A DNA stretch of 51,716 nt from Parabacteroides sp. (GTDB lineage: Bacteria > Bacteroidota > Bacteroidia > Bacteroidales > Tannerellaceae), in assembly GCA_022775005.1 (NCBI GenBank), contig JALFJR010000068.1, forward strand, positions 1 to 51,716, in the 5' to 3' direction. The position numbers and the translations under genes were made by a program. Within the stretch, counting starts at the first letter, position 1. Every line of letters begins with the position of its first letter. The notes beneath the pieces are model-generated. The model did not search any database and had not been told where the DNA came from. It worked only from the letters and a program-made list of their open reading frames with translations. Shown in pieces: positions 2,767 to 17,526 of the stretch.

Positions 2767-5181
2767 TTACGATTTCTTTTGGAACAGTCGTTTCCAACGG
2801 GATTCCGAGCCATCCACATAGCCGTAGCCATAGCCGTAGCCATAGCCGTAACCATAACCATACCTACTTGTCTTGATGATCGCGCCATTAAGCACTAACG
2901 ACATGTTCTTCAGTTGGTCACTCCGGTAGATCTTCTCCAACTCTGGCAACATCCGGCGATCCAGCTTGCCTACACGCACCACGAAGATCGTCAAATCGGC
3001 GATGCGATTGGTGATCGCGGCATCGGCAACGACTCCCACAGGCACATTGTCCACAAAGATATAGTCGTAACGCTTGCGCAATTCGGCAATCATAGCTTCC
3101 AATTGCTCGCTGAGCAACAGCTCGGATGGATTAGGCGCGATTGGCCCGGCCGAGATGAAATCCAGATTCTCACAGATCTCATTGTGTTTGATGATCTCGT
3201 CAATCGTCGCTTTACCGGCCAGGAAAGAGGTCACACCCTTCTCCGTCGAATGGAGATGGGTATGCGAGGTCAATGTTCCCTTTCGGATATCCATGTCAAT
3301 CAATATCACCCGCTTATCGGTTTGCGCGAAGCTGGCCGCCAAGTTGCTGGATACATAGGTCTTACCGGCTCCCGGTCCGAAGGAGCTGAAAGTAACCACC
3401 TGCATGTTCTTCGCCTTGACACGCATGAAGTCCATATTGGTACGGATGATACGGAATGCCTCCGAAACCACATCACGCCCTTGCGCGCGAACAGCAATGC
3501 CATGCGCCGAATCCTTATCTCCCTTCTTGCCTTTGGATGAATCTTTCGGGATCTCACCCAAGAAAGGCACGCTCACGGCATCCTCAATGTCTTTACGGTT
3601 GCGGATACGCGTATCAAAGAACAGGAACAGCAGCAGGATGACTGCCGGAAGGGTGAATCCTTTCATGACACCCGCCATGATCATGTTGCGTCCGTTGGGC
3701 GAGATCGGAGAGTCTCCTCCTCCCGCGGGATCCAGCACACGGGCATCGGTCTCGGTAGTGGCCTGGCTCAACGCATTCTCCTCTCGTTTGTTCAACAGGT
3801 AGAGGTAAAGCTCCTCCTTGATGCGCTGCTGGCGCTCGATGGAAAGCATTTGCTGCTGTTGCTTGGGGATATTGGCCACTCGCCACTGGGCCTCTCCCGC
3901 CCGATTGCGAGCCTCATTCAGTTTCACGTCGATACTGACGATCAGGTTGTCAATCGCCCGGATAATGTTCTGTCGCATGGCATTCAGGTTCTTGTTCAGC
4001 TCCTGAACGATGGGGTTCTTATCGCTACTTCCCTCGATCAACTTATCTCGTTTCAACTTATTGGCATTATAGGCCGCTATCTGTGTCTCGATATTGATGT
4101 CGGCAATACCGGTATTGGAGGGGATCAAATCAGTCTCTTTCGACGGATCCACCAGATAACTCTTGATGTAACGTGCCATGCGCGCCTGCAACTCCAGCTC
4201 CTGCGTCGTTGAGCTATACTGACGTTTGTCTGACATCGACATAGACGCGGCCGAGCCGATATCAATGATGTCATTTTCTTGCTTGTACGACTGCAGCTCG
4301 CTCTCGACACCTCCCAGCTCCTTCTCGATAATCACCAGACGCTCATTGATGAAATTAGAGGTATTGATCGCGATCTGGTTCTTGTCCTTGACAGTCTCCT
4401 CGTTATACACCGTGATCAGCGTATTCAGCACATCCTCCGCACGGGCGGTGGAGTAATCCCGCAACGACAAATAGAGGATGGAAGCGTCATTCTCCGCCTG
4501 GCTGATGTTCAAGTTGCTTCTGAACAGGCTGGCCATCGTGTCCGTGCTTTGCCGGCGCACCTCTATCGGTGTGTTAAACCACTTCTCCGAGAAGTACAAT
4601 GTTGGGGTAATGACCAACTTTCCGATCGGCGATTGGATGGTGTCGCCCACATTGGCGGTCAGCGAGATTCCTGTCGCGTCATTCGAGAAATCAGACAACC
4701 TGACCTTCTCCTTGCTCAGGATCCGGACAGTCAAGCTGAAGGTGAAATGGTCCTCCTCCTCGGGGAACGATACCTTGACAGGAGCTTGCGTGTAAAGCTC
4801 CTCCTCGCGCAACTCATTCATGATGATGTAGCAGACATTGGCATGAAGACGGTTCACCACGTCGCGCATCAACTTGTGCGACTGAAATTGCAAGATCTCA
4901 TTCGATACATTCGTATACGTATAGGTATTGAAACGATCCAACCCACGACCGATATTGTTGGAATGGGCATCTTTGATCATCACAGTAGCCGATCGAGAAT
5001 AGACAAATGGTGTCTTGGCATATTGATACCAAGCATATCCGCCAAACAGACCGACCGATAAGACAAACCAATACCACTTGGACAACAGGTACAAGAGGAT
5101 GTCTATCGGATTGATATTGAATCCTCCACCACTGATGGCCTTATCGCCTGACAGATCTTTCTGTTCGCTCATCTTTATCAT
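2767..5181 (-). CDS. Wzc-like polysaccharide chain-length regulator and BY-kinase
   Basis: The product (804 aa from the chosen start) is an inner-membrane polysaccharide co-polymerase with a cytoplasmic tyrosine kinase. After a short cytoplasmic N-terminus comes a first membrane helix (about 35-55) and a Wzz-type domain. A long coiled-coil-prone periplasmic region follows, then a second helix (about 510-530). The kinase domain has Walker A GPGAGKT near residue 605, Walker A' ILIDMDIRKG and Walker B YIFVDNVPVG. The C-terminus ends in eight tyrosines alternating with glycine, the autophosphorylation cluster. I start at the ATG at 5181 (MIKMSEQKDL), preceded by GGAACAAC; an in-frame codon at 5208 would overlap the wza gene. 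It lies between wza and its presumed phosphatase. Confidence 0.92.
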   Translation of the reverse strand: MIKMSEQKDLSGDKAISGGGFNINPIDILLYLLSKWYWFVLSVGLFGGYAWYQYAKTPFVYSRSATVMIKDAHSNNIGRGLDRFNTYTYTNVSNEILQFQSHKLMRDVVNRLHANVCYIIMNELREEELYTQAPVKVSFPEEEDHFTFSLTVRILSKEKVRLSDFSNDATGISLTANVGDTIQSPIGKLVITPTLYFSEKWFNTPIEVRRQSTDTMASLFRSNLNISQAENDASILYLSLRDYSTARAEDVLNTLITVYNEETVKDKNQIAINTSNFINERLVIIEKELGGVESELQSYKQENDIIDIGSAASMSMSDKRQYSSTTQELELQARMARYIKSYLVDPSKETDLIPSNTGIADINIETQIAAYNANKLKRDKLIEGSSDKNPIVQELNKNLNAMRQNIIRAIDNLIVSIDVKLNEARNRAGEAQWRVANIPKQQQQMLSIERQQRIKEELYLYLLNKREENALSQATTETDARVLDPAGGGDSPISPNGRNMIMAGVMKGFTLPAVILLLFLFFDTRIRNRKDIEDAVSVPFLGEIPKDSSKGKKGDKDSAHGIAVRAQGRDVVSEAFRIIRTNMDFMRVKAKNMQVVTFSSFGPGAGKTYVSSNLAASFAQTDKRVILIDMDIRKGTLTSHTHLHSTEKGVTSFLAGKATIDEIIKHNEICENLDFISAGPIAPNPSELLLSEQLEAMIAELRKRYDYIFVDNVPVGVVADAAITNRIADLTIFVVRVGKLDRRMLPELEKIYRSDQLKNMSLVLNGAIIKTSRYGYGYGYGYGYGYGYVDGSESRWKRLFQKKS
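2818..2862 (-). repeat. In-frame Tyr-Gly minisatellite in the kinase tail
   Basis: Fifteen codons read as eight Tyr separated by seven Gly. On the plus strand a 12-nt unit (ATAGCCGTAGCC) recurs nearly perfectly about three times, alternating the two Tyr codons. Copy-number change in 6- or 12-nt steps would keep the frame and alter the number of phosphorylatable tyrosines. Confidence 0.85.
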
Positions 5182-5194
5182 GTTGTTCCGTTTT

Positions 5195-6004
5195 TTAGTT
5201 GACAGCAAGCAATATTAAAGAGGTGACGGTCGTGATGAATGACAAGACCATGCTCCATGCGCTCAGCCGCTGCTGAGTCTGCTCGGTAGCCTTCATGCTG
5301 GTAGGCTCCACATAGACAATGTCATTCTGTTGCAGATAATAGTAAGGAGACATGAAGATGTCTTTACTGCGGATGTCGTGGAACAGGATCCGACGTTTAT
5401 TTCCATATTCCCGGATCACTGCGATACGATCCAAACGGGAACGAGGGGTCAGGTCGCCCGCCATAGCCAAAGCCTCCAACAGGGTGATACGGTCGCCTTT
5501 CACGTCGAAGGTACCTACATGTCCGACCTCTCCCAAGACGGAAAACTTGAAGTTCAAGAAGTTCACGGTAACGATAGGATCCTTGAGCAATTCCTCATTG
5601 ACCAGTCTTTTCTTGATCAACTCCGTCAATTGACGACGAGTAAGCCCCTCGACATGCAGCTCGCCCAAGACCGGAAAATCGATATTACCATTGATATCCA
5701 CCAAATAGCCCTTTTCCTTATCATCACTGATGATTCCTACCTCATTGTTCGAGATGGTTCCATCCACACCCACCGAATAGCTTCGGCTTCCAGACACGTT
5801 GAAGGGCAGAGACAGCTCCGGATTCTTACTGTTCACGATAATACTCAGTCGGTCATCTCGATGGATGATCGCCTCGTATTTCTGGATCATAGGATACTCC
5901 TGTAGTTCGTCCATATCCTGTAAATAGACAAAATCTTTACGCGTAGCGCAAGAACTCAAAATGACCACGGCCAACAGAAAGGCCCATTTAATCGTTTTAT
6001 TCAT
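5195..6004 (-). CDS. Wza-like polysaccharide export lipoprotein
   Basis: The 269-aa product is an outer-membrane polysaccharide export protein. It has a lipoprotein signal (MNKTIKWAFLLAVVILSSC, lipidated Cys at residue 19). A poly-export domain follows (about 45-125, containing IHRDDRLSIIVNSKN), then an SLBB-type domain (about 130-225, FSVLGEVGHVGTFDV). The C-terminus is hydrophobic (AWSMVLSFITTVTSLIL), fitting the membrane helix of the family. It would form the outer-membrane channel working with the Wzc-like protein encoded next. It sits directly behind the peptide-cassette ABC transporter (21 nt gap), with no visible terminator or new promoter between them. Confidence 0.9.
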   Translation of the reverse strand: MNKTIKWAFLLAVVILSSCATRKDFVYLQDMDELQEYPMIQKYEAIIHRDDRLSIIVNSKNPELSLPFNVSGSRSYSVGVDGTISNNEVGIISDDKEKGYLVDINGNIDFPVLGELHVEGLTRRQLTELIKKRLVNEELLKDPIVTVNFLNFKFSVLGEVGHVGTFDVKGDRITLLEALAMAGDLTPRSRLDRIAVIREYGNKRRILFHDIRSKDIFMSPYYYLQQNDIVYVEPTSMKATEQTQQRLSAWSMVLSFITTVTSLILLAVN

Positions 6005-6025
6005 CGTTTGATAATTTAATATTTT

Positions 6026-7714
6026 CTATTTCTTTATATGAATGACTTGATCACATCGCTCCATCAACCGAGGATCGTGTGTCACAAAGATCAACGTATT
6101 GTCTTTACCCCACAGCAACAGATTATCCATCAATCGTTTGGTGGTTTCCGTATCCAAGGCCGACGAGGCCTCGTCAAACAGCCAGATCCGTCCGGGGCGC
6201 AGCAACGCCCGTGCGATCGCGATCCGTTGGGCCTGCCCCTCGGATAGGCCATACCCATGCTCTCCAACCTTGGTATCCAACCCTTCCGGCAGCTCAAACA
6301 CGAACTCGGCGCAAGCCAACTGGATGACCTGACGCAACAGCGCATCGTCTGCCCTTGGTTTACCCAACCACAAATTCTCCCGGATCGTACCGCTCAGCAA
6401 GGTGTTTCCTTGTGGTACATAGACGAAATTGATCCGGACATCGGGGGTCACCACGTAGGTCTGTCCCTCATCTGTCGTCAGTTCCATATAGCCCGCTTCG
6501 GGATAAACCAACGCCAGCATCAAGCGGATAAGGGTGGTCTTTCCCGTTCCGGTAGGACCGGCTATCGCGGTTGCGCTTCCCGGATGAAAAGTGGCGGTAA
6601 AACGCTCAATGACAGGTTGCCCCTCCTCATAGCCAAAAGAGACCTCATGAAAATCCAAGGTCAACGGACGGTCGATATAGAGCGGATGCTCATCCGGCTC
6701 CACATCCTCGAAGAGCGCCATCAGACGCTCCACGGAGGTCCATCCACGCACCAAGCCGGGCGGGATAGCGATCAATCCCAAGAATGGGCCTTGCACCTGC
6801 CCTACCAATTGCAGGAAGGCCGTCATGGTGCCGAACGTGATCTCGTGATTATGTAGCTGGAAGATACCCCATAGGAACGCACATAGATACCCGCCACCAA
6901 ACGTAAAACCCATGACTCCTTGCGTGAAGGTGGAGAATTTAATCTGTTCCATACCTAATTTGAACAGCTTCTCTTGCGTGTCGTGCAGTTTCTGCTTCCG
7001 ATAGTCGGTGGCACCCAGCGAACGGACAAGCATACGCTTCGACAGATTCTCCTGCATGACTGTGCCCATCTCGCTGTTCATCGCCTTTTGCGCACGACTA
7101 AGCTCCCTGACCTTCCTAAAATAGATCTTGGATAATAAAACAAGTGGAGTGGCTCCCAAGATAAACCATGCCAAGCGGGCATCGAGAATCCATAAATAGA
7201 TGAACGAGCCTATTAGCTGCAAACTGGTAACTAACAGGTTAGGAATGATACTCATTCCCATGCCCAACACTTCGGAGGCATCGCTGCTGATACGGGTCAG
7301 CAGATCGCCGGTGTGCCACTTCCCAGCCCCTTTCCACGAGCACATCATCAACGCGTCAGACAATGAATTCTGCATCCGGATGCCGATGCGCATATTGATC
7401 TTGCCAAAGATCCAGGGAGAGATCAGCTTTATTCCCATGCCTACCAAGAAGGAGGCGACAACGATCGCGGCAACTAAATAGATATTCCCCTCTTGCGCAC
7501 CTGTGGCCACATCAATGATCCATTTCGACATCGCCACATTCACCAACGACATGATCACCCCGAAAATGCCGGAGAAGATCGAGAAGGTGATGAGCCAATG
7601 ATACCCTTCCGTGACCTGCATGACCCAACGGAAGGCCTTCCGCCCCAACTGATAGGTGTGACGCATATTCTCCCGCGTGAGTCTTTTCGAAATCTTTTGC
7701 AGCAGCTCGTTCAT
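6026..7714 (-). CDS. ABC exporter, fused membrane and ATPase domains
   Basis: The product (562 aa from the chosen start) is a half-size type I ABC exporter. The membrane domain covers about residues 35-310. The ATPase domain follows with Walker A GPTGTGKTT, signature LSEGQAQR (a variant of LSGGQ), Walker B IWLFDEASSALD and the H-loop FVTHD. There is no N-terminal C39 peptidase domain, so it cannot trim a double-glycine leader itself. I start at the ATG at 7714, which overlaps the upstream stop as ATGA and follows AGGAAGGA; the ATG at 7729 is the alternative. Its place at the end of the cassette suggests it exports the modified peptide. Export of a lipid or glycan precursor cannot be excluded. 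Confidence 0.88.
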   Translation of the reverse strand: MNELLQKISKRLTRENMRHTYQLGRKAFRWVMQVTEGYHWLITFSIFSGIFGVIMSLVNVAMSKWIIDVATGAQEGNIYLVAAIVVASFLVGMGIKLISPWIFGKINMRIGIRMQNSLSDALMMCSWKGAGKWHTGDLLTRISSDASEVLGMGMSIIPNLLVTSLQLIGSFIYLWILDARLAWFILGATPLVLLSKIYFRKVRELSRAQKAMNSEMGTVMQENLSKRMLVRSLGATDYRKQKLHDTQEKLFKLGMEQIKFSTFTQGVMGFTFGGGYLCAFLWGIFQLHNHEITFGTMTAFLQLVGQVQGPFLGLIAIPPGLVRGWTSVERLMALFEDVEPDEHPLYIDRPLTLDFHEVSFGYEEGQPVIERFTATFHPGSATAIAGPTGTGKTTLIRLMLALVYPEAGYMELTTDEGQTYVVTPDVRINFVYVPQGNTLLSGTIRENLWLGKPRADDALLRQVIQLACAEFVFELPEGLDTKVGEHGYGLSEGQAQRIAIARALLRPGRIWLFDEASSALDTETTKRLMDNLLLWGKDNTLIFVTHDPRLMERCDQVIHIKK

Positions 7715-8793
7715 TTCCTTCCTATCCATTCTTTAAACCGCACGAAGGTTAATCCGGCCAACCACCAGAAGGTCTCATCGAAGGCATACCCCAGCGACAG
7801 GTGTATCTTGTGCATCACCCGCCGCAACGTATAGCGTTTGTTCGCCCATTTCCCGGAGGGACGCTCACCATAACGCGCGTCTCCATGCCCGAAATTACCA
7901 CTTTCCAGCACCTCTCGCAGCAACGGTTCCGGACAACCTTTCACAGGGAAGGGCACCTCGTCTGCCGGCAATCCCAAATAGTTCACCAACAAGGCATATA
8001 ACAATCTGTTCCATCGATAAATATGCCATTGGCGGCAAAGACGCTCCAGCGTCTGAATGTCGGTAACGGCATGTAGGGCATGGAAAGTCATCGCCACGTC
8101 GCACAATTGCCTTAACCCGATCCCCTCATTGATGAAATGTTTCAGGATATGGGTGGAAAGCAACAAGTGATTCGCCTCCACGGGGAGTCGTTCCTCTCCC
8201 TTCGCGAAAACCGTCGCTTCCCATTGGCGTATCTGCTGCTGAAGGAAAGGATTATGCAGCTCTATCAATCGGCTGTGATGCTCAATCAAGATGTTATTGA
8301 TCACACAGGATGCCTCTCCTTGTTTGCCTCGCTGCACGGGCAATCCCATCTGCTCCATCCGTTGGTTGGCCTGTTCGGTTTGCGCCTCATTGCCGAACCA
8401 CAAGTCAATATCGCCCGCCAGGCGATGCTCCGGATGCGGATAGAAATCGGCCACCCCTATTCCCTTCAGCACCAAGAAAGGGATGGAGGGAGCTTGCGCA
8501 TAGACCTGTCGCAACCCGTTGAGCAGGGAACGATGTTGCCGGTTCACCCGCTCCAACGTATCCACCTCCACGGTCCAGCTGAGCAACTGCCGCCGAGGCG
8601 GCATACAGGCGGCGGGCAAGAGGCAGACACCATCATAGACAATGCCCTGCACGGTCTGTTTCCTGGCCAGGCTATGGATCTCTTCCCATTCCTGCTCATT
8701 CAACGGGAAACAGGCGGAGCAATCTTCCTGACGGTTCCACAATCCTTGCCTGAGCAAGAGCATAAAGGCCTTCTGTAAAGAGGGGGATATCAT
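7711..8793 (-). CDS. Nucleotidyltransferase-family protein (NTP_transf_5-like)
   Basis: The 360-aa product has the core of a small nucleotidyltransferase fold: FLVLKGIGVADFYP followed by RLAGDIDLWF, where the two Asp of GDIDL would bind metal (about residues 107-132). His-rich segments (LIEHHSRLIELHNPF, LLLSTHILKHF) follow, as in the uncharacterised NTP_transf_5 group. From memory, relatives occur beside PqqD-like, HPr-kinase-like and ABC exporter genes, including lasso-peptide clusters. It could add a nucleotide to the peptide or a carrier; this is inference. It overlaps the exporter gene by 4 nt and is 9 nt behind a pqqD-like gene, so it is tightly coupled to the cassette. Confidence 0.75.
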   Translation of the reverse strand: MISPSLQKAFMLLLRQGLWNRQEDCSACFPLNEQEWEEIHSLARKQTVQGIVYDGVCLLPAACMPPRRQLLSWTVEVDTLERVNRQHRSLLNGLRQVYAQAPSIPFLVLKGIGVADFYPHPEHRLAGDIDLWFGNEAQTEQANQRMEQMGLPVQRGKQGEASCVINNILIEHHSRLIELHNPFLQQQIRQWEATVFAKGEERLPVEANHLLLSTHILKHFINEGIGLRQLCDVAMTFHALHAVTDIQTLERLCRQWHIYRWNRLLYALLVNYLGLPADEVPFPVKGCPEPLLREVLESGNFGHGDARYGERPSGKWANKRYTLRRVMHKIHLSLGYAFDETFWWLAGLTFVRFKEWIGRK

Positions 8794-8802
8794 CTCTCGA
8801 AG

Positions 8803-9072
8803 CTATTCAACGGCTAAACCGGCCTCCAACCATTGCTGGCACAACTCACTCGCGTCACTCTGGGCTGTCTCTGGAGTCACCTCGTAGGCGTCGCACAGCA
8901 ACGCACTGACCTCTTCAACCGTAAATTCTTTGTTTTCCAACTGCTTCCATAGCCAGGCGGCAGAGTCATTCAAGGAATAGACCTGCGCCATGTCGATGGT
9001 GTCGGAAAAGGGATTGACAATCATATATTCTTTGCCGATTTGGCGGAGTATCAAATTTGAATTGAGTTTCAT
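8803..9072 (-). CDS. PqqD-like peptide-binding protein 1
   Basis: The 89-aa product fits the PqqD/RRE fold: an N-terminal beta part (LILRQIGKEYMIVNP), the core MAQVYSLNDSAAWLWKQL, and a C-terminal helical part with EVSALLCDAYEV. PqqD-like proteins bind the leader of a peptide substrate and present it to a radical SAM enzyme. It sits between the second pqqD-like gene (47 nt gap) and the nucleotidyltransferase gene. The two PqqD-like proteins differ clearly in sequence, so they may serve different enzymes or steps. Confidence 0.8.
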   Translation of the reverse strand: MKLNSNLILRQIGKEYMIVNPFSDTIDMAQVYSLNDSAAWLWKQLENKEFTVEEVSALLCDAYEVTPETAQSDASELCQQWLEAGLAVE

Positions 9073-9119
9073 CGCTCTGTATGCTTATCTATTTGTTCGA
9101 CATTTTAGTGAGTGGCCGA

Positions 9120-9401
9120 CTACCAGCTTGGGCCTGTCGGTCGGATCATACCGGCTTGCAACAGCTGCATGATAAACGCGGAGGCATCTTGCGAGGCGGT
9201 ATCCTTATCCACATCATATTCATCCAAGATCAACTGTATCAGGTGATGGAAATCTTTCGTCTCTTCGATATGCTCCCAGATAAATTCACCCGTTCCGGTC
9301 AAGGTGACCATCCCGTTGAACTCCTGGGCGGTTTCTCCGGAAGGGACCAATACGATCTCTCCGGCAATGTTTCGCTTGATAAATTCTTTTGTCCTTTTCA
9401 T
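9120..9401 (-). CDS. PqqD-like peptide-binding protein 2
   Basis: The 93-aa product has the same layout as its neighbour: FIKRNIAGEIVLVPSG, then the core VTLTGTGEFIWEHIEE and the helical part LIQLILDEYDVDKDTASQD. It is a likely RiPP recognition element presenting a leader peptide to a radical SAM enzyme. Its start overlaps the end of the S24/S26 peptidase gene by 4 nt, indicating translational coupling. With two radical SAM enzymes and two PqqD-like proteins in one cassette, a one-to-one pairing is plausible. Confidence 0.85.
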   Translation of the reverse strand: MKRTKEFIKRNIAGEIVLVPSGETAQEFNGMVTLTGTGEFIWEHIEETKDFHHLIQLILDEYDVDKDTASQDASAFIMQLLQAGMIRPTGPSW

Positions 9402-9841
9402 CGCAGGAAAAAACGGTAAATAGAAATAATAGCTCTACGTAAGGGAATGATGTTCGGCCACACGCGCGCGAAAAACTCCCACCAGAAATCTCCCGGGGCA
9501 ATCGTCTGCCCTTTCCGTAGCGCCTGCGTGACCAAGGCGAAGATCTGTTCTCTCCGGATCGGACCCTCCACAACGGTTTGCGCGTCGCCGATCAGATAAT
9601 AGGCATCCTGCTCCACACGACAGATGCGGTGCATGACATACTCGCCCGTGTCGCGCTGATAAAACACCATGTCTCCCTTGCGCAATGCCCTCGCAGGCTT
9701 CGAGAAGGTGATACTGTCTCTCGCATGAATCAGGAAGGGCGACATGCTACTGCCCGAGATCATCAAGCGAACCTGTTTACCCTCCTCCACCCACTCACGT
9801 GCATGAGACAGGAATGTCTTCGTATCCAACGGTTTCAACAT
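9398..9841 (-). CDS. S24/S26-family peptidase, Sec11-like
   Basis: The 147-aa product resembles a small signal-peptidase-like enzyme. The motif ISGSSMSPFL places the nucleophile at Ser32; KGDMVFYQ follows at 55-62, then YVMHRI with His71 and LIGDAQ with Asp86. Ser/His/Asp at these places is the pattern of Sec11/archaeal-type signal peptidases rather than the Ser/Lys dyad of bacterial LepB. There is no N-terminal membrane anchor; a weak hydrophobic stretch lies near the C-terminus. As the exporter lacks a peptidase domain, this enzyme is the best candidate for leader removal. That role is inferred. Confidence 0.8.
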   Translation of the reverse strand: MLKPLDTKTFLSHAREWVEEGKQVRLMISGSSMSPFLIHARDSITFSKPARALRKGDMVFYQRDTGEYVMHRICRVEQDAYYLIGDAQTVVEGPIRREQIFALVTQALRKGQTIAPGDFWWEFFARVWPNIIPLRRAIISIYRFFLR

Positions 9842-9846
9842 TGGCT

Positions 9847-10725
9847 CTATCCTCCTATTACCCTGTTTGCGGTCAGATACTCACGTAACAGATGGGCCGC
9901 CTCAGGCTCCATATTGCAGGCATAGGTACTGAGGCTGACCTGTTCGGTCATCACCAACAGATCGTCGAGTGCCTTGCGTGTGAACCGAGGGTTCCACCAG
10001 TTGATCGTGACTTGCGAGCTGAGTGCCTTGAAATGTTTCATCACCGTTTGAGGGCGGATCGCATTGTCAGCAGCCTGCTCCATGAAGACAATGGCTGCCA
10101 ACGGTCGAGACTGGTTGTGGCAGATGCCACTGGAGCCACAGACGGGCCACCCTTGCGCCTCATAGCCCCCCTCCGGAGAGGGGCAAAGCAAGGCGCGGTC
10201 GCCATTCAACACCGCTGAGCCGGGGATATGCTTACACCACAAGTTCGCATGCGTAGACTTCCCGATGCCACTTGGCCCACTGAACAGGATCGCTTTCCCG
10301 TGATAATCCAAATAGGCACAATGCAGCACGTAACAACCTTTTTGCGAGAGGGATCGTTCCAAGCATAGGCAGGAGATAAACAGCGTATCAATCGTCAGCT
10401 CCTGCTTTAGTGGCCGCAGAAAATAGACATCCACCTCCCGCTCGTTACGCTCCTGATAGAGGGCGTAACTGGCTTGCAATTGGCCAACAGCCAACAAGCG
10501 GGCCTCTAACTCCCCCTGCTGAAAGACGACAATATCCTTTCGTCGAAACACGACCTGCCAATCGGCAGTCGGCAACGGCAGACGATCGACAAAATGAAAG
10601 GCATAGTGCCGATCCACCTCCTCGGAGGCATTCTCCCGATCGATAAACAGACAGCTGTTGACCGGAATCTCCTGCTCCGTCACGCCCGAAAGCGCCAATC
10701 TCAACGGACCTATATGCAGTTTCAT
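9847..10725 (-). CDS. HPr kinase-related P-loop protein
   Basis: The product (292 aa from the chosen start) is related to HPr kinase/phosphorylase and small-molecule kinases built on that fold. The P-loop FSGPSGIGKST lies near residue 150, followed by LNGDRALLC and the loop GWPVCGSSGI. It lacks the N-terminal domain of true HPr kinase, and no HPr gene is nearby. HPrK-like proteins in peptide clusters have been linked to phosphorylation of the peptide, for example in some lasso systems; that is family knowledge, not proof. I start at the ATG at 10725, 1 nt after the upstream stop; a GTG at 10737 would overlap the radical SAM gene by 11 nt. Confidence 0.8.
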   Translation of the reverse strand: MKLHIGPLRLALSGVTEQEIPVNSCLFIDRENASEEVDRHYAFHFVDRLPLPTADWQVVFRRKDIVVFQQGELEARLLAVGQLQASYALYQERNEREVDVYFLRPLKQELTIDTLFISCLCLERSLSQKGCYVLHCAYLDYHGKAILFSGPSGIGKSTHANLWCKHIPGSAVLNGDRALLCPSPEGGYEAQGWPVCGSSGICHNQSRPLAAIVFMEQAADNAIRPQTVMKHFKALSSQVTINWWNPRFTRKALDDLLVMTEQVSLSTYACNMEPEAAHLLREYLTANRVIGG

Positions 10726-10726
10726 C

Positions 10727-11851
10727 TTATCGCTCACGGTTTAAGTCAAGTGCTCCGGAGGGGAAATCCAGGATAATCTGTCTCTTCGCCTCGGCCATTT
10801 GGCAAAGGTAATCCATGGTGCCGGTGGTCTCCTTCTCGCAACGGGCAGCTGCGTAACAGACATCGCACACGGGTCGCAAACGGCAACCCTCGCATTCACT
10901 GTGGGGAGGCAATGCCTCAGCCGCTTGCGTAAGCTGCCGCCAAGCGGCGGCCATCTCCGTCTGGCGCAAGTCGATGGCCGGACGATCCATCAGCACACAA
11001 GGCGTGAGGATGCCTTGCCAATTGATCCAACAAGAGCTCTTGGCAGCCCTGCATTCCAACGCACAGGCTTGTGCGCCCTCCACCTGGGCAAGCGTAAAGT
11101 TCAAGTCGCGCATGTATCGGGCCATCTCGTTCCCCTTTTTATAAGCCATATAGCGAAGCTCAATACGAGCGGCCTCAGCGGCGTCCAGCCGTTCAGCCGG
11201 GATGTCGCGTTGGCTCCCACATTCAGGGCGTGTGAGCGGGAACATGTAAGCGTTCACCTCAGCCGGAATATCCAATTCCTGTGCGAGACGGATAATCTCA
11301 TCATAATCCTCCACATTCTTGCGGACAATACTCACGTTCAGTTTCACGTCGATATCCGCCTTTTTCAGTCGCCTCAAAGCAGCCAGGCAAAGCGCATAAC
11401 CCTGCGGATTATGACACAGGCGGTCATAGGTCGCCGTGCTGCCACCATACAAGGTAATGTTCACCCGACGCGGCTTATAGGTTCGCAAGACGCTCACCAT
11501 CTCATCGTCTATCAATGTCCCGTTGGTATTGAGCGTCAAGATGAAGCCCATCTCACGCAACCGGACATACAATTCCTTGAAATAGGGATAGCGCATCGGC
11601 TCCCCGCCTGTCAGGAGGATGAAGAGCGTGCCCATCTCCTTCAGCTGTTCCGCCCATGCCACCCACTGCTCCAGAGGCAGCAGGCCTCCCTGCCGTTCCA
11701 CCACGCCCTGCTCGGCACGGATGAAACACATGTCGCATTTAAGCGTGCAAACGGGTGTCAACTCGAAGTTGGCGGTGATGGGTATCCGTCCGCGATTGGC
11801 TTTCTCCACCAATCGCCTCTCCAAGGGGTTGGCATCCTGTAGCTGATCCAT
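10727..11851 (-). CDS. Radical SAM/SPASM peptide-modifying enzyme 1
   Basis: The 374-aa product has the radical SAM cluster motif ELTPVCTLKCDMC, with Cys35, Cys39 and Cys42 binding the SAM-cleaving 4Fe-4S cluster. The SAM-binding segment LLTGGEPMRYP follows. The C-terminal SPASM domain has many Cys, including CRAAKSSCWINWQG, TPCVLMD, ECEGCRLRPVCDVC and DYLC, which would hold auxiliary clusters. Such enzymes install thioether, C-C or other bonds in ribosomal peptides. It is a tandem paralogue of the next gene upstream (22 nt gap), with near-identical layout from residue 8 onward. It carries extra Cys at the start of the SPASM part (CALEC, SSC) that the paralogue lacks. Confidence 0.92.
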   Translation of the reverse strand: MDQLQDANPLERRLVEKANRGRIPITANFELTPVCTLKCDMCFIRAEQGVVERQGGLLPLEQWVAWAEQLKEMGTLFILLTGGEPMRYPYFKELYVRLREMGFILTLNTNGTLIDDEMVSVLRTYKPRRVNITLYGGSTATYDRLCHNPQGYALCLAALRRLKKADIDVKLNVSIVRKNVEDYDEIIRLAQELDIPAEVNAYMFPLTRPECGSQRDIPAERLDAAEAARIELRYMAYKKGNEMARYMRDLNFTLAQVEGAQACALECRAAKSSCWINWQGILTPCVLMDRPAIDLRQTEMAAAWRQLTQAAEALPPHSECEGCRLRPVCDVCYAAARCEKETTGTMDYLCQMAEAKRQIILDFPSGALDLNRER

Positions 11852-11873
11852 AACTCTTTCCGATGATTAGTGT

Positions 11874-12974
11874 TTACGTCTTCAACAAAATTTCCGCTTT
11901 CTTCGACTTGGCGATCTGGCAAAGATAGGAAAGGTCGCCACATCGGCTCCGCTCGTTGGTGGCATTGGCGTAGCAGACATCGCAAAGCGGTCGTAGCGAG
12001 CAACCGGCGCACTCATGGTGGAGAGGCAACGCCTCGCAATCGGCCACGATACGTGCCCAGGCATCCGCCACCGCGGTGGAACGCAAGGAGACAGCCGGCA
12101 CGTCCATGTCCACACAAGGTGTCATCAACCCCTGCCAATTGATCCACACCGAGCTTTTACCCGCACGGCAAGTCAAGCCAACGCCCTCCGCTGCCGGCGA
12201 TTCAGGTTGCTCCAATTGTCGAAGCAGTTGATCAACATAGGCGGCATACGCCCGGCCATATTTGTGGCGCAATGCGTCCACCTCTGCCCGTGCCACCTCC
12301 GAGGGGATCGGTCGGCAAGCCTCCGGTGCCACCTTGGCACTCCGATCGGCCCGACTATATACCGACAGATAGCTGTTGGTCAGCGCCGGCATCTCCAGCT
12401 CATCCGCCAACGCCAGCATTTGCCGATGCTCTTTGATGTTTTGGCGTGTTAAGGTGAGGTTTAGTTTGGTGTCAATGCCGTAGGCCTTCAAGCGTCTCAA
12501 CCCCTCCATGCAACGGTCAAAACCTTGAGGCACATGGCAAAGCGCTTGATACGTCTCATTGCTCACGCCATAGAGCGAGACATTGACCCTCCGCGGCTTC
12601 AACCGCTGGAACAGACGAGCCATCTCGTCGTCGATCAAGGTCGCGTTTGTGTTGATCGTGAGGATGAATCCCCTCTCTTTCAGGCGGACATACAGCTCCT
12701 TGAAATCGGGATAGAGCAACGGTTCACCTCCCGTGAGCAGGATGAACAGCGTGCCCATCCGCTGCAACGCGTCGGCCACACGCAGCCACTCCCTCAACGA
12801 ACAAACGCCTCCCGCTGCGGCAACCCGCGATTGCTCCATCCGGACGTAACACATGTCACATCGGAGGTTGCAGACGGGAGTCAGCTCAAAGGAGGCATTA
12901 ATAGGCACTCGGTTAGCGGTCGCTTTGTCCACCAAGGCCCGTTCTATCGGATTAATACCTTGCAAGAAATGCAT
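11874..12974 (-). CDS. Radical SAM/SPASM peptide-modifying enzyme 2
   Basis: The 366-aa product has ELTPVCNLRCDMC with Cys35/39/42, then LLTGGEPLLYP and a SPASM domain with TCRAGKSSVWINWQG, TPCVDMD, ECAGCSLRPLCDVC and SYLC. It is the first enzyme gene after the candidate precursor and probably arose with enzyme 1 by tandem duplication. Divergence between the two is spread along their length, which suggests different target positions or reactions rather than redundancy. The 261-nt gap to the precursor gene holds three hairpins. Family call is firm; substrate is inferred. Confidence 0.92.
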   Translation of the reverse strand: MHFLQGINPIERALVDKATANRVPINASFELTPVCNLRCDMCYVRMEQSRVAAAGGVCSLREWLRVADALQRMGTLFILLTGGEPLLYPDFKELYVRLKERGFILTINTNATLIDDEMARLFQRLKPRRVNVSLYGVSNETYQALCHVPQGFDRCMEGLRRLKAYGIDTKLNLTLTRQNIKEHRQMLALADELEMPALTNSYLSVYSRADRSAKVAPEACRPIPSEVARAEVDALRHKYGRAYAAYVDQLLRQLEQPESPAAEGVGLTCRAGKSSVWINWQGLMTPCVDMDVPAVSLRSTAVADAWARIVADCEALPLHHECAGCSLRPLCDVCYANATNERSRCGDLSYLCQIAKSKKAEILLKT

Positions 12975-13033
12975 TTTGTTTTCGCAAACATCTCATGCGT
13001 TTCAATTTTCGTAACGTAACATGATTGTTTCGT

Positions 13034-13051
13034 GACGCAACACGTTGCGTC
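13034..13051. repeat. Palindrome of REP-like type
   Basis: GACGCAAC and GTTGCGTC form a perfect 8-bp inverted repeat around AC. From memory, palindromes of this kind recur as intergenic elements in Bacteroidetes and cyanobacteria. Confidence 0.6.
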
Positions 13052-13065
13052 CCCACAAATGATGG

Positions 13066-13094
13066 GTAGAGACGTCACAGTGTGGCGTCTCTAC
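13066..13094. repeat. Hairpin element with GTAGAGACG arms
   Basis: The arms GTAGAGACG and CGTCTCTAC are perfect and the pairing continues inward (CACA/TGTG) with one wobble, giving about 14 bp with almost no loop. It lies 14 nt from the previous palindrome and shares the GACG core, so the two look like one compound REP-like element. Confidence 0.65.
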
Positions 13095-13126
13095 TCTCAA
13101 TTATTTTAGAAATGTCTTTTATGAAT

Positions 13127-13162
13127 AGGGAGGGAGTGCCCTGTTGAGGCGGCTCCTTCCCT
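13127..13162. repeat. Hairpin between precursor and enzyme genes
   Basis: AGGGAGGGAG (13127-13136) pairs with CTCCTTCCCT (13153-13162) with one wobble, and the inner bases extend the stem to about 14 bp. The T-run (TTTTT) follows on the plus strand only, so for minus-strand transcription it lacks the U-tract of a full terminator. It could act as a partial attenuator or RNA-end stabiliser after the precursor gene. Confidence 0.5.
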
Positions 13163-13184
13163 TTTTACCTAAAGACGATATTTA

Positions 13185-13205
13185 AAATAATTGATTTATT
13201 GCGAT
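13185..13205. repeat. Direct repeat, copy A, flanking the precursor gene
   Basis: This 21-bp sequence (core AATAATTGATTTATTGCG) is identical to 13722-13742 in the same orientation. Together the copies bracket the candidate precursor gene and one palindrome, 537 bp apart. Confidence 0.85.
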
Positions 13206-13235
13206 CGATACTTATTGATAATCAAAGATACTTAA

Positions 13236-13619
13236 TTATGAAACATTTTTTTCCCACGTATCTCGATTTAGATTTTCCGTAGCATGAATATTTCCATCAC
13301 CTGTCCAAATAATTACAGGTATAGGAGTATAACCTTCTACCTTATCATTTCCTCCATTAGCGTAAAAATAACCTTTTTCAAATTCATCTGTTGTAGGAGC
13401 TTGATGGGCTTTATTACAAGCATGATAATAGCGAGATTTTCCCCATGTCAAATTCCATCCATTCTCAAGGAATATATCACCCTTCTGTCCTCTTCCTGCA
13501 TCACACACGAATTTATATAAGCCCGCTCCACTCTCGGAATGTTCACACGCAGCTACATACTCATTCGGCACGAATTCCTCTGTTGTCAGCATCGGCTTCT
13601 CATACACTTTCTTTTTCAT
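13236..13619 (-). CDS. Candidate RiPP precursor protein
   Basis: The 127-aa product begins MKKKVYEKPMLTTEEF and continues VPNEYVAAC. It has no hydrophobic signal peptide, so VAAC is not a working lipobox; it may mark a leader/core boundary. Three Cys lie at 25, 39 and 68, and the rest is rich in Gly, Asn, Tyr and Trp (NGWNLTWGKSRYYHAC). I recall many small Bacteroidales proteins with similar N-termini but cannot check that here. It is the first gene of the cassette, just upstream of two radical SAM genes. Hand-counted GC is about 37% against about 63% in a sample of the neighbouring enzyme gene, which suggests a different origin. It could instead be an unrelated small protein; the ORF is probable, the role inferred. 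Confidence 0.7.
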   Translation of the reverse strand: MKKKVYEKPMLTTEEFVPNEYVAACEHSESGAGLYKFVCDAGRGQKGDIFLENGWNLTWGKSRYYHACNKAHQAPTTDEFEKGYFYANGGNDKVEGYTPIPVIIWTGDGNIHATENLNRDTWEKNVS

Positions 13620-13683
13620 TTTCTTTCTTTTTTGATTCCATCCCGAAGGAAGGGATCAGCAAAGAGCTTGAGCGAAGCGTGAT

Positions 13684-13704
13684 CAGCGTCCCTACGGGAC
13701 GCTG
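13684..13704. repeat. Perfect palindrome upstream of the precursor gene
   Basis: Arms CAGCGTCCC and GGGACGCTG form a perfect 9-bp stem around TAC. A related, shorter element with the same CC-TAC-GG centre is at 13820-13834. Confidence 0.75.
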
Positions 13705-13721
13705 GGATAAAAGAATTATTG

Positions 13722-13742
13722 AAATAATTGATTTATTGCGAT
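13722..13742. repeat. Direct repeat, copy B, flanking the precursor gene
   Basis: Identical over 21 bp to 13185-13205, same orientation. It lies 103 bp upstream of the precursor start. The 239-nt gap 13620-13858 holds this copy and two palindromes; I see no gene in it. Confidence 0.85.
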
Positions 13743-13819
13743 TTGCTTACTGCAAAAAGCTGATAGCATTCTTCTTCTCAGCACGCTAATTCATTGTCGC
13801 TCAAGCAACCTGCTGACAC

Positions 13820-13834
13820 AGTTCCTACGGAACT
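13820..13834. repeat. Short palindrome related to 13684-13704
   Basis: AGTTCC and GGAACT pair around TAC, the same loop as in the longer palindrome. It lies 25 nt past the aminotransferase stop and could help end or stabilise that part of the transcript; no U-tract follows. Confidence 0.5.
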
Positions 13835-13858: not shown

Positions 13859-15004
13859 CTATCTCATACCCCGAATGACCGCAACCACTCGCTCCACATC
13901 CTCGTCGCTCACCATCGGTCCTGAGGGGAGGCAAAGGCCACAGTTGAACTGCGCCTCAGCCACACCATTGACATAGGCGGGAGAGGAGGCGAAGACCGGT
14001 TGCAGGTGCAACGGTTTCCAAAGCGGGCGCGACTCGACGTCGGCTTGCGCCAACCGCTCGCCAAGGCTCGCGGGCGTGAAGCCGGCCTCTTCGCGATCCA
14101 CTTTGATCGTAGTCAGCCAATAGTTGGGCAGGAAAGGGGTCTCGCCCCTCGGTTCCGTCACCGTGATTCCCGGCAGGTCGGCCAGCCGCTCCACATAGAG
14201 CCGGTGGATGGCCTGACGGCGCGCGATGTGGCTATCCACCACCCGCATCTGCCCTCGCCCAATGCCTGCCGACACATTGCTAAGCCGGTAATTATAGCCG
14301 ATCCGCTCATGCTGATACCAGGGGAAAGGCTCGCGCGCCTGGGTGGCATAGAACTTCACTTGCCGTGCCTCCTCCTCCGTCGCGCACAACAAGGCACCCC
14401 CACCGCTGGTGGTGATCATCTTGTTGCCATTGAAGGAGAGGATGCCATATTGGCCTATCGTACCACAATAGCGTCCGTCGTAAACGGATCCCATTGCCTC
14501 AGCCGCGTCTTCCACCACGGGGATACCGTAGCGGGCGGCTACCTCGCCAATTTCATTCATGCGGGCGGGTGTGCCGTAGAGATGCACCGGGATGATGGCC
14601 TTGGGCTTACGCCCCGTCTGCCTCAGGCGATCCTGTATGGCCGCCTCCAGCAGGTCAGGATCCATGTTCCAGGTGTCCGGCTCACTGTCCACGAAAACGG
14701 GGGTAGCCCCTTGATAGCGAATCGGGTTGGCGGAGGCGGTGAAGGTGAAGCTCTGACAGATCACCTCATCGCCCGCTTCCACGCCCAGCATCACCAAGGC
14801 CAGGTGGATGGCCGCGGTGCCCGAAGAGAGAGCCACCGCGTGCACCTCACGGTTGGCGCGCTCGGAGAGCCACGCCGACAGCTCCCGCTCGAAGCCATCC
14901 ACGTTAGGCCCCAAGGGAACTACCCAGTTGGTATCAAAAGCCTCACGCACGAAGTCTTGCTCGGCTCCGCCCATGTGCGCCAAAGATAACCAAATCTTAC
15001 TCAT
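13859..15004 (-). CDS. DegT/DnrJ/EryC1/StrS-family aminotransferase
   Basis: The 381-aa product is a PLP-dependent sugar aminotransferase that adds an amino group to a nucleotide-linked keto-sugar. Visible features are ALSSGTAAIHLAL (cofactor phosphate binding), VVEDAAEAMGS with the PLP-binding Asp, and FNGNKMITTSGGG with the internal-aldimine Lys near residue 190. It lies 26 nt behind the OmpA-like genes. The membrane dehydratase encoded upstream in the operon could supply its 4-keto-sugar, as in WbpM/PglF plus PglE-type pairs. The last capsule-type gene before the peptide cassette, it would supply an amino sugar for the polysaccharide. The exact sugar cannot be read from sequence. Confidence 0.9.
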   Translation of the reverse strand: MSKIWLSLAHMGGAEQDFVREAFDTNWVVPLGPNVDGFERELSAWLSERANREVHAVALSSGTAAIHLALVMLGVEAGDEVICQSFTFTASANPIRYQGATPVFVDSEPDTWNMDPDLLEAAIQDRLRQTGRKPKAIIPVHLYGTPARMNEIGEVAARYGIPVVEDAAEAMGSVYDGRYCGTIGQYGILSFNGNKMITTSGGGALLCATEEEARQVKFYATQAREPFPWYQHERIGYNYRLSNVSAGIGRGQMRVVDSHIARRQAIHRLYVERLADLPGITVTEPRGETPFLPNYWLTTIKVDREEAGFTPASLGERLAQADVESRPLWKPLHLQPVFASSPAYVNGVAEAQFNCGLCLPSGPMVSDEDVERVVAVIRGMR

Positions 15005-15030: not shown

Positions 15031-16293
15031 TTAGGGGTTGCGTGCCTCCGTGATGAACACTACGACACGGTTCCACTCGTTCTTCAACTGATAAGGCTGC
15101 AAGCTGTCGCCCTTGTAATCCACGCGGATACGGCTCGGATCGACACCAAACTCCTTCACCATCATGTTGCTGACAGCCTCAGCACGCTTCTGGCTCAGCT
15201 TCAAGTTGTAAGCGGGGCTACCCGTCTGCACGTCGGCATAACCGGTTACGATCAAGTTCACCTCCGGATGCTCCTCCAGATACTTGGCAGCCTCTGCCAC
15301 GTTCTTCTTCTGGATGTCGGTGATGTTATACTTGTCGATCTTGAAGGATACGGTCATACCCAGCAGCTCGTTCTTCACCACCTCTTTCTTCACCTCGGTG
15401 ATCACCGGAGCCGGCACGACAACGGTCTTCTCACGCTCCTCGTTGATCTTGCGGTTCAGCTCGTCCACCATAGCCTGGTCGGTCACCTTCGTATAGCGGA
15501 AACGACGGTCGCCATACTGATCCTTGAAGTGGTAGGTCAAGCCCAACATGACGTTCGCATAGGAATCCCACTTGCGATCGTAGCGCACGCCATTCAAACC
15601 ATCGTCGGTCGCGTTGAAGGTCGCCTCCAAGTTGAGGTCGAGCGTGTTGCTCAAGATGTAGTTGAACTGCAAACCGGCACGCAGGGCGAAGAGCGCCTTG
15701 CTGTCAGTGCATACCTCATAAGGTGTCTTTCTATCCACATCGTTGTTGCCCCACGCAGGGCTGTTGGCCCCCCACTCCTTCACCTTGTCGTCGAAACCGA
15801 AGGTGGTGTTGACACCCATACCTAAGATACCGACCACGTTGAAGCGGCAATCCTCGTCATACTGGCCAAAGATGTTATTCAGGTTGAACAAACCATCCAA
15901 ATAGCCGCTGAACATGTTGAAACCATAGTTTCCGTTGCCGAACACCTGGGGATAGGCCTCGATCACCTCGCTGTTGGCGCGTGACATCTGTTTCAGATAG
16001 GCGAATTGCAGACGCGCGCCCACGGCCGGCGCGAAATACTTACCGACCGAGATGGCTACACTCGGCTTGGTCATCGCGCCGAAGGAGCCGAAACGGGCAT
16101 TGTCGGACAGGGAGTGGTTCGCTCCGGCTTGAATGCCGATGAACCAGTTGTCTTTAGCCTTATATTGCCTCAACGCCTGAACGGTATCGGCTTTTAATTT
16201 CCAGGCCGCCTCCTCCTCGATCGTCTGTGCCCACAGCGACGCAGAACAGCAGATGGCAGCCAATAGTAAAGCTATTCTTTTCATGCTAAACAT
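15031..16293 (-). CDS. OmpA-family outer membrane protein
   Basis: The 420-aa product has a signal peptide (ALLLAAICCSASLWAQ). An N-terminal beta-barrel-like domain follows to about residue 265, rich in alternating aromatic strands, then a short coiled linker (ELNRKINEEREKTV). The C-terminal OmpA domain has VTGYADVQTGSPAYNLKLS and QKRAEAV, matching the peptidoglycan-binding Asp and Arg positions. It should tie the outer membrane to murein. It is preceded 15 nt upstream by a second OmpA-like gene in the capsule operon. The pair may position or stabilise the polysaccharide export machinery; that is inference. Confidence 0.88.
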   Translation of the reverse strand: MFSMKRIALLLAAICCSASLWAQTIEEEAAWKLKADTVQALRQYKAKDNWFIGIQAGANHSLSDNARFGSFGAMTKPSVAISVGKYFAPAVGARLQFAYLKQMSRANSEVIEAYPQVFGNGNYGFNMFSGYLDGLFNLNNIFGQYDEDCRFNVVGILGMGVNTTFGFDDKVKEWGANSPAWGNNDVDRKTPYEVCTDSKALFALRAGLQFNYILSNTLDLNLEATFNATDDGLNGVRYDRKWDSYANVMLGLTYHFKDQYGDRRFRYTKVTDQAMVDELNRKINEEREKTVVVPAPVITEVKKEVVKNELLGMTVSFKIDKYNITDIQKKNVAEAAKYLEEHPEVNLIVTGYADVQTGSPAYNLKLSQKRAEAVSNMMVKEFGVDPSRIRVDYKGDSLQPYQLKNEWNRVVVFITEARNP

Positions 16294-16308: not shown

Positions 16309-17493
16309 TTATTCGTTGATATACACAATGACGCAACTGGTTTGCGGATCGAGTGAGTTGATGACAGCCGGGTTCTTCTCGATGAAGATGCGTCCGGCGG
16401 GGATGTCATAGGTATTCACCAGCACGTTGCGGATGGATTGTGCGCGCGCCATGAACAACTCCGCATCCTTCACCTCCTTGGTCGAAGAGATGTAGAGGTC
16501 GCCCTCGGCCAGCTTCTTCAGGTTCTCAGCCGCTGTGTACACGTTCACCTCCTGCAACTTGTTGATCTCGGCAGAAGCATTGTCGAACGAGATGAACGAA
16601 CGGACATGGTTGCTCTCCACCACCTCTGTCTCCACCTTGGTGACCGGAGCGGGCGCTACCTTCTTCTGCTCGCGCAAGCGGTTGATCTCGGCGTTCGCCT
16701 CGTCGAACTTCGAGAGGTCGCGACGCGCGTAGGTGAACTGGTGCGAACCGTCGTGGTTCTTGAAGCGATAGGTCACGCCTACCATCAGGTTGACATGGCC
16801 ATCCCAGCGGTCGTTAGAGCCTTTGCCATCCCAACCGTCGAAGGAGTCGTCGAGCACGCTGTTGATCACCTCGACGTTCAAATCCCAAGCCTTGCTGAGG
16901 CGGAAGTTCGCCATCAAGCCGAGGCGGATAGCCAGCAGGTTTTGCGACTTCGTGCTGAAATACGACTCCTGTGTCTCCGTATTCCACGACTTGTCGCTGA
17001 AGTCCATCGTATGCTCGAAGCCGGCACCCAAGATACCGATCAAGTTGAACACACGATCCTCCTCATAGCCGCAGCAGATGTTGGTGAAGTTGAACAAACC
17101 GTCCAACGCAAGACCTGCCGCGTCCCAATGGTAGAGACCTCCGTTGCTCGCGTAGCCGGAGTTAATCCCATAAGAACCCTGGAGGCGCAAACCTCCCGCC
17201 GGAGCGATCCACTTACCTACGGACAGGGCCGCAGCCGGGCGAACCTGGTTGAAGAAACTGGAGTTAGAGATGTTGGTACCCCATGAGTAGAGGCCACCAG
17301 CCTGTAAGCTCACAAACCAGTTATCTCCAAACTTTGACTTGTTTAAGAGCCGTTTACCACCGTTCGTAGGATCTGTCCAATAAGGCGTGTCGCTGACCTC
17401 CTGCTGTACAGGAGCCACTTCCGCTTTCTCTTGAGCATATCCCACGGATAGGGTCAACAATGGCATCATAAACGCAATGAAATACTTTTTCAT
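16309..17493 (-). CDS. OmpA-like outer membrane protein, divergent C-terminus
   Basis: The product (394 aa) has a signal peptide (MKKYFIAFMMPLLTLSVGYA) and the same plan as the following gene: barrel-like domain, linker (EANAEINRLREQKKV) and a C-terminal OmpA-type fold. In the C-terminal part the usual Asp-containing segment is replaced by LYISSTKEVKDAELFM, while ARAQSIRNVL keeps the Arg region. Peptidoglycan binding may be lost or changed. I start at the ATG at 17493, preceded by GGATCGCAAA; an ATG at 17505 is possible. The two genes look like an old duplication kept as a pair. Confidence 0.85.
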   Translation of the reverse strand: MKKYFIAFMMPLLTLSVGYAQEKAEVAPVQQEVSDTPYWTDPTNGGKRLLNKSKFGDNWFVSLQAGGLYSWGTNISNSSFFNQVRPAAALSVGKWIAPAGGLRLQGSYGINSGYASNGGLYHWDAAGLALDGLFNFTNICCGYEEDRVFNLIGILGAGFEHTMDFSDKSWNTETQESYFSTKSQNLLAIRLGLMANFRLSKAWDLNVEVINSVLDDSFDGWDGKGSNDRWDGHVNLMVGVTYRFKNHDGSHQFTYARRDLSKFDEANAEINRLREQKKVAPAPVTKVETEVVESNHVRSFISFDNASAEINKLQEVNVYTAAENLKKLAEGDLYISSTKEVKDAELFMARAQSIRNVLVNTYDIPAGRIFIEKNPAVINSLDPQTSCVIVYINE

Positions 17494-17526
17494 TTTGCGA
17501 TCCATTTTAATTAAACATTATATTAG

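Follow-up and report, generated by a model that had tools for sequence, protein, structure and literature searches.

We analyzed a window of 51,716 nucleotides of DNA from Parabacteroides sp. (assembly GCA_022775005.1, contig JALFJR010000068.1, positions 1 to 51,716 of the forward strand). It harbors nine contiguous genes, all on the minus strand, flanked by a sugar aminotransferase gene and the wza gene of an UpxY-type capsule locus. An earlier note on this DNA had presented them as an undescribed-looking cassette for a ribosomally synthesized and post-translationally modified peptide (RiPP), and a check of the open reading frames bore out all nine, with their places, strand and flanks. The genes, two of which encode putative RiPP recognition elements (RREs), are as follows:

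13236..13619, minus strand: precursor protein, 127 aa; leader YxxP...ExFxxNxYVAAC (residues 6-25), conserved core, C-terminal Ser127
11874..12974, minus strand: radical SAM/SPASM enzyme 1 (rSAM1); Pfam Radical_SAM, CxxxCxxC at Cys35, 39 and 42
10727..11851, minus strand: radical SAM/SPASM enzyme 2 (rSAM2); Pfam Radical_SAM, 51-52% identity to rSAM1
9847..10737, minus strand: HprK-like kinase; invariant His139, P-loop S156 and GKST159-162, NGD178-180, modelled fold
9398..9841, minus strand: S26 (SipW/archaeal-type) peptidase, proposed leader peptidase; Ser32-His71
9120..9401, minus strand: PqqD-like RRE 1, proposed partner of the S26 peptidase; Pfam PqqD
8803..9072, minus strand: PqqD-like RRE 2, proposed partner of the NTP_transf_5 protein; Pfam PqqD
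7711..8793, minus strand: nucleotidyltransferase-fold protein, proposed to add a sugar to Ser-phosphate; Pfam NTP_transf_5
6026..7729, minus strand: MsbA-like ABC exporter; Pfam ABC_membrane/ABC_tran

Judged from sequence, the cassette is real, conserved and mostly capsule-linked, and it forms a branch with radical SAM enzymes within the phosphopeptide RiPP superfamily. Its gene set, its conservation, the C-terminal Ser of its precursors and its linkage to capsule genes can all be read from the sequences themselves.

Scanning a species genome collection once with rSAM1 yielded 15 loci (numbered with the prefix L), 14 of them at 37-59% identity; L019 (23%) was dropped. The final set, again of 15 loci, includes the window and L003/L034 from a second species of its genus, with L008 counted together with L006. 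The L008 contig, labelled Candidatus Cryptobacteroides gallistercoris, gives match values identical to those of the L006 Phocaeicola contig, pointing to a binning error or a very recent transfer. Seven loci are from Bacillota and eight from Bacteroidota (L009 and L010 share a genome). Several contigs stop within the cassette, and the per-gene counts refer to the stretches examined: each locus has one to three radical SAM genes, a precursor is found in 14/15, the HprK-like kinase in 11/15, the S26 peptidase in 9/15 and NTP_transf_5 in 7/15. The expectation that the genes would be kept together in other genomes was borne out, as they recur as a group across the 15 loci, and a RiPP-type pathway is, on this comparison, conserved in both phyla.

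The cassette is rare. Among 123 genomes of the family, a precursor profile had hits in two, each time at the cassette, and it gave a single match in the window's own genome even at E<=10. In 393 genomes of the order the S26 profile gave one very strong match (the window itself) and seven weaker matches. At E 1e-60 the radical SAM profile had hits in 3 of 395 genomes of the phylum, namely the window's own and two with distant SynChlorMet-like cassettes (L035, L036). These two encode several radical SAM proteins and an S26-like protein; L036, which also has HprK-like and ABC genes, falls below the SynChlorMet cut-offs. In a tree of 21 radical SAM sequences Bacillota and Bacteroidota stand apart, except for the Bacteroidota pair L010:14586 and L015:9974. 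Since this pair groups with the Bacillota enzymes, transfer between phyla is likely.

The precursors share two fixed features. Out of 8,391 stop-to-stop frames taken from the window and 25 loci, a profile of the leader only, made from 15 precursors, picked out 26, spread over 14 loci, and every one of the 26 ends in Ser; among other closed stop-to-stop frames of >=150 aa, 51 of 619 do so. There were no matches in nine loci (L035-L043) that are without this type of radical SAM enzyme. An aromatic-x-x-P motif is present in all 26 precursors, with Tyr in 21, Trp in 3 and Phe in 2, and a Cys follows 19 residues past the aromatic residue in 25 frames and 20 past it in one. The linear polyphosphorylated peptides (LPP) described from Bacilli by Popov et al. 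(May 2026; PMC13381572) have a YxxP followed by a phospho-Ser, the target of the kinase LppK, 18 residues past the Tyr. By spacing, a correspondence of position rather than one drawn from aligned proven homologues, a Cys appears to occupy the LPP phospho-Ser position in the radical SAM branch, whose invariant Ser is instead the last residue. No fixed Ser is found at core positions 1-12 of the 26 precursors and, with a Cys at the LPP place, this leaves the C-terminal Ser as the sole invariant Ser of all precursor classes. Four small frames picked by hand near modules lacking radical SAM genes have a Ser at 19 (L050, L059, L065) or 20 (L042).

Five core residues, Cys39, Cys68, His72, Trp105 and His112, are conserved across the main class (15 sequences). 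A structure model of the window precursor predicts a beta-rich domain with a mean pLDDT (the model's per-residue confidence score) of 76.4 and ten-residue blocks of 70-91 over residues 31-127, and fold recognition with this model matched no known fold. The product therefore looks like a folded domain of about 100 residues rather than a short peptide, which corrects the picture of the earlier note. The precursors vary in length, class and copy number, with four in L005 and five in L007. Among those of L007 lies a small gene pair (7474-8006) that by eye resembles a RelE/YafQ-type toxin-antitoxin system.

The family assignments of the earlier note held as well. Pfam matches support the radical SAM enzymes (E-values 1.7e-29 and 1.3e-24), the PqqD-like proteins (1.6e-16 and 8.1e-16), NTP_transf_5 (6.9e-35) and the ABC exporter, a structure model supports the kinase and the Ser32-His71 pair the S26 peptidase. 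In rSAM1 the CxxxCxxC cysteines and eight further Cys are invariant among the 21 aligned sequences, and its match to the SPASM Pfam model is below that model's cut-off. As in radical SAM/SPASM RiPP maturases, CxxxCxxC and SPASM-type cysteines occur together with a nearby precursor, found in all but one locus, and an RRE. For the HprK-like and S26-like proteins Pfam had no match, and those from NCBIfam (ScmC, 3.9e-9; signal peptidase, 2e-5) fall below cut-off. The kinase was modelled with a mean pLDDT of 92.9; 49 PDB entries matched the model at E<=0.001, and every one of the 50 rows listed is a PEPCK or HprK/P, so that the HprK/PEPCK kinase fold is confirmed at the level of the model. Ser32 and His71 of the S26 protein are invariant in 9/9 sequences, and their spacing of 39 residues equals that of the catalytic S29-H68 of LppS as given in PMC13381572. 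We read the protein as an S26 peptidase because of this invariant pair and the weak profile match.

The best NCBIfam match of PqqD-like RRE 1 is a lasso peptide RRE model, below cut-off. In NTP_transf_5, K110 G111, D128, D130, E171 and H173 are invariant in seven sequences. The NTP_transf_5 proteins of L010 (15694-17064) and L015 (11070-12443) have an N-terminal extension that is PqqD-like by eye, which suggests that the second PqqD-like protein of the window serves NTP_transf_5. No peptidase domain was matched in the exporter by Pfam or NCBIfam, and no immunity gene was recognized among the cassette proteins tested.

The cassette lies within the following capsule genes:

19483..20028, minus strand: UpxY, NusG domain (Pfam)
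17527..19440, minus strand: CapD-like, Polysacc_synt_2 (Pfam)
16309..17505, minus strand: OmpA-like paralogue, without a Pfam match at 1e-5
15031..16293, minus strand: OmpA gene, upstream capsule gene (Pfam)
13859..15004, minus strand: sugar aminotransferase of the DegT family, LegC-like below cut-off, upstream flank (Pfam and NCBIfam)
5195..6004, minus strand: Wza-like Poly_export gene, downstream flank (Pfam)
2767..5208, minus strand: Wzc-like gene, Wzc-type ATPase with GNVR domain, kept in L005 and L006 (Pfam)
2033..2752, minus strand: CpsB_CapC gene, kept in L005 and L006 (Pfam)

Downstream of the CpsB_CapC gene are genes for an Exo_endo_phos protein (1042-2046) and an ABC-2 exporter permease (177-1070), followed by the contig end. 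The C-terminus of Wzc is a run of Gly-Tyr repeats, as in L059 and L065; this simple repeat could vary in length and so alter the number of tyrosines.

Polysaccharide genes, named by BLAST to the window genes with Pfam checks of chosen ones, are present in the stretches of 11/15 loci (window, L005, L006, L010, L011, L012, L013, L015, L016, L018 and L034). By Pfam, L010 encodes a PglD-like protein, UDP-galactopyranose mutase, a glycosyltransferase and an initiating sugar transferase, and L015 has the same genes by sequence. L012 has CpsB_CapC (Pfam), and several Bacillota copies adjoin CpsB/Wzc-like genes. Of 118 genomes of the family searched, 10 have NTP_transf_5 of this type, and in 7/10 a strong wza match is no more than 10 kb away, against 0.06 expected at random placement; the 10-kb limit was chosen after the positions had been seen and the genomes are related, so that the P value is an overstatement. 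One of the other three genomes has both genes on separate contigs, and two are without a wza match at 1e-60. Besides the window, 18 wza neighbourhoods were inspected, and parts of the module are present in five (L050, L051, L052, L059, L065), none of which has a radical SAM match in its stretch; the L050 species carries a radical SAM cassette on another contig, which L050 may adjoin. HprK/S26/PqqD/NTP_transf_5/ABC modules or parts lacking radical SAM genes are also seen in L038, L039, L041 and L042. Such modules occur in the window's family and order, several of them beside wza.

The gene order UpxY-CapD-OmpA-OmpA-aminotransferase is common to the window, L068 (which overlaps L005) and L069, from the same genome as L006, where the contig stops past the aminotransferase gene. 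L034 has its aminotransferase gene upstream of UpxY instead, and there the OmpA-like genes are followed by the precursor. L070 and L071 have the same capsule locus, with wza following the aminotransferase gene after 115-117 bp and no cassette between them; their genomes, those of L010 and L015, carry the cassette on another contig. UpxY is present in 4/5 genomes tested, and the L007 genome has no match to the window UpxY at 1e-5. The cassette thus does not always lie in UpxY loci: in the genomes of L010 and L015 the site in the UpxY locus is empty. Because these two genomes combine an empty site with a cassette elsewhere, the cassette is, on its genomic placement, a movable module that prefers capsule loci, and its linkage to UpxY is not obligatory.

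On balance we lean towards reading the cassette as a RiPP pathway module of capsule loci, in which a radical-SAM-modified protein would be phosphorylated and sugar-capped at its C-terminal Ser and exported with the capsule. Every chemical step of this pathway, and the order of the steps, is what we infer. In brief, a PqqD-like RRE would bind the YxxP leader, and one or both radical SAM/SPASM enzymes would modify the core of about 100 residues, most likely at conserved Cys or Trp/His. The HprK-like kinase would phosphorylate the invariant Ser127, a target proposed because the C-terminal Ser is conserved and because paeninodin-like lasso peptides, as treated in PMC8498205, offer a precedent. NTP_transf_5, guided by the second RRE, may then place a sugar on the Ser-phosphate, plausibly one that the CapD/aminotransferase pathway encoded in this operon makes. 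Removal of the leader near VAA/C would fall to the S26 peptidase, and transport of the product to the periplasm, where it may join or accompany the capsule, to the MsbA-like exporter. The earlier suggestion of a modified peptide made together with a polysaccharide under UpxY control stands as regards a RiPP-type cassette with a kinase and a nucleotidyltransferase in capsule loci; a constant link to UpxY does not hold. A bolder version, possible but rather doubtful, has the C-terminal Ser-phosphate as a phosphodiester link to a capsule sugar from the flanking CapD/aminotransferase genes, so that the peptide would form part of the capsule or cap it. The LPP authors speculate (PMC13381572) that their NTP transferase has a partner outside the core genes, e.g. 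a maker of a rare substrate, and a capsule-borne sugar nucleotide would fit this missing partner.

It should be noted that several observations weigh against the favored pathway. In the stretches examined, some of which run to a contig end, HprK, S26 and NTP_transf_5 matches are lacking from 4/15, 6/15 and 8/15 loci respectively, so that none of the three need be obligatory, and two of the seven NTP_transf_5 matches (L011, L017) are just 25% identical. L009 and L017 show no polysaccharide genes, and L007 (aminotransferase and OmpA-like genes only) and L014 (CapD-like only) are ambiguous. The C-terminal Ser could be conserved for another reason. Also, 15 of the 26 precursors seeded the leader profile and were picked by similarity to the whole window precursor, which may favor a like C-terminus; for the remaining 11 the similarity is chiefly in the leader, and they have a final Ser too. 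Deletion of the NTP transferase gene lppN in B. subtilis carrying the LPP core genes had no effect that was seen (PMC13381572), and the phosphate, the sugar and the product are all predicted only.

The cassette may instead make a RiPP that is secreted for antagonism or signalling; it would have an insertion hot spot, and maybe an export route, in common with the capsule genes and no chemical link to the glycan. We regard this as a serious but less probable explanation. The L070 and L071 capsule loci imply that the capsule does not need the cassette, the patchy distribution and the Bacteroidota pair inside the Bacillota radical SAM clade point to transfer, and the multiple precursors of L005 and L007 recall conflict systems. 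However, the relocated L010 copy is also found among glycan genes, the related modules without radical SAM genes are capsule-linked too, and no immunity gene was recognized among the cassette proteins tested. It is unlikely that the cassette is an LPP member as published, with the kinase acting near the core start and the radical SAM genes as an add-on. The same five core functions, the YxxP leader and the capsule setting (PMC13381572) speak for this, but the phospho-Ser place is by spacing a Cys in 26/26 precursors, and none of the 26 carries the LPP motif YxxPxVLxHQxIxFETxxS with its phospho-Ser at core position 3, of which only the aromatic-xxP part fits. Furthermore, the words radical, rSAM, SPASM and Bacteroid- are absent from the main text of that paper. 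Least probable, and in our view very improbable, is a structural or assembly role in the capsule, in which the modified domain would serve the Wza/Wzc machinery as a part or cofactor and would not be released. The modelled folded core and the position of the cassette directly upstream of wza would suit such a role, but the precursors vary in length, class and copy number and other wza loci are without a precursor match.

The cassette ties a radical SAM RiPP pathway to capsule synthesis in Bacteroidota, and with it the newly described phosphopeptide module extends beyond Bacillota. The rule of a Cys at the LPP site and a Ser at the very end is sharp, and the roles of the kinase and NTP_transf_5 can be tested at one residue. 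As most of the loci lie beside polysaccharide genes, the peptide may well be produced jointly with the sugar coat; were the product joined to the capsule, some capsules would be partly peptide-bearing, with effects on host and phage recognition.

Three further sequence elements lie around the precursor gene:

13719..13742: second copy of a 24-nt direct repeat, on the upstream side of the precursor
13182..13205: first copy of the 24-nt direct repeat, in the precursor-rSAM1 gap
13064..13096: dispersed palindrome, a 15-pair hairpin and REP-like element, between the precursor and rSAM1

The 21-nt core of the repeat has only two copies in the genome at <=2 mismatches, and as the repeats bracket the precursor they fit the expectation that precursor units are gained and lost. 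The GC content of 13001-14000 is 42%, compared with 51-57% in 6001-13000. The earlier note saw no clear internal terminator. The hairpin runs counter to this, but it is dispersed (10 genome sites at <=2 mismatches), its T-rich tail is on the plus strand and terminator-like sites overall show no excess (14 vs 13.9 in shuffles), so that the statement holds in part. The motif TAnnTTTG, which we take to be the Bacteroidetes -7 consensus, is found upstream of UpxY at 20249-20256 and again in the precursor-rSAM1 gap at 13223-13230; the window has 31 matches vs 21.7 expected. A single promoter may plausibly serve the whole operon.

Among known systems, the SynChlorMet cassette shares two radical SAM/SPASM enzymes and PqqD-like and HprK-like proteins with the window. 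A literature search found no paper on it and it was compared by the NCBIfam ScmC-ScmF models; membership was rejected on bit scores against cut-offs (ScmC 36.3/125, ScmD 24.1/100, ScmE <=76.2/400, ScmF <=79.7/400). To our knowledge no capsule link has been reported for SynChlorMet.

We found no description of a radical SAM version of the module in the open-licence literature searched, and the words capsul- and nucleotidyltransferase are absent from the main text of PMC10352776 on RiPP mining in Bacteroidales. The label undescribed must nevertheless be narrowed: the core set and its capsule placement are published for Bacilli (PMC13381572), and the radical SAM branch, its occurrence in Bacteroidota and the precursors with a C-terminal Ser are what the literature searched does not describe.

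Lasso peptides of the paeninodin type receive a phosphate on their C-terminal Ser from HprK homologues, and in pseudomycoidin a nucleotidyltransferase adds hexoses onto the C-terminal Ser-phosphate (both from PMC8498205). Butyrivibrio lasso clusters with HprK, a nucleotidyltransferase, a glycosyltransferase and EpsH are reported in PMC7533575. The cassette shares with this type an RRE, a nucleotidyltransferase, an ABC exporter, polysaccharide genes nearby in some cases and, as predicted here, an HprK homologue acting on a C-terminal Ser, the combination of that residue in 26/26 precursors with a kinase of modelled HprK fold. Unlike the lasso clusters it has an S26 peptidase and radical SAM enzymes instead of a lasso cyclase and B2 peptidase; neither an asparagine-synthetase-like macrolactam cyclase nor a B2 cysteine peptidase is among the Pfam/NCBIfam matches of the nine proteins.

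The closest likeness is to LPP, whose core genes also lie in capsule loci and whose occurrence is described as restricted to Bacillota. In the homologous LPP steps (PMC13381572) an RRE binds YxxP, a SipW-like peptidase with an RRE cleaves the leader and LppK phosphorylates core Ser3. The five-function LPP gene set is present in the cassette, with S26 assigned by a weak profile match and catalytic residues only. Shared are the SipW-like peptidase (Ser/His), a discrete RRE, the HprK-like kinase, the NTP transferase, the MsbA-like exporter, the YxxP leader, the setting in capsular polysaccharide loci and the patchy distribution. LPP clusters have no primary modifying enzyme beside the kinase, whereas the cassette has two radical SAM/SPASM genes; it further differs in its conserved core of about 100 residues, in its occurrence in Bacteroidota and in precursors that by spacing have a Cys for the phospho-Ser and carry an invariant Ser at the C-terminus.

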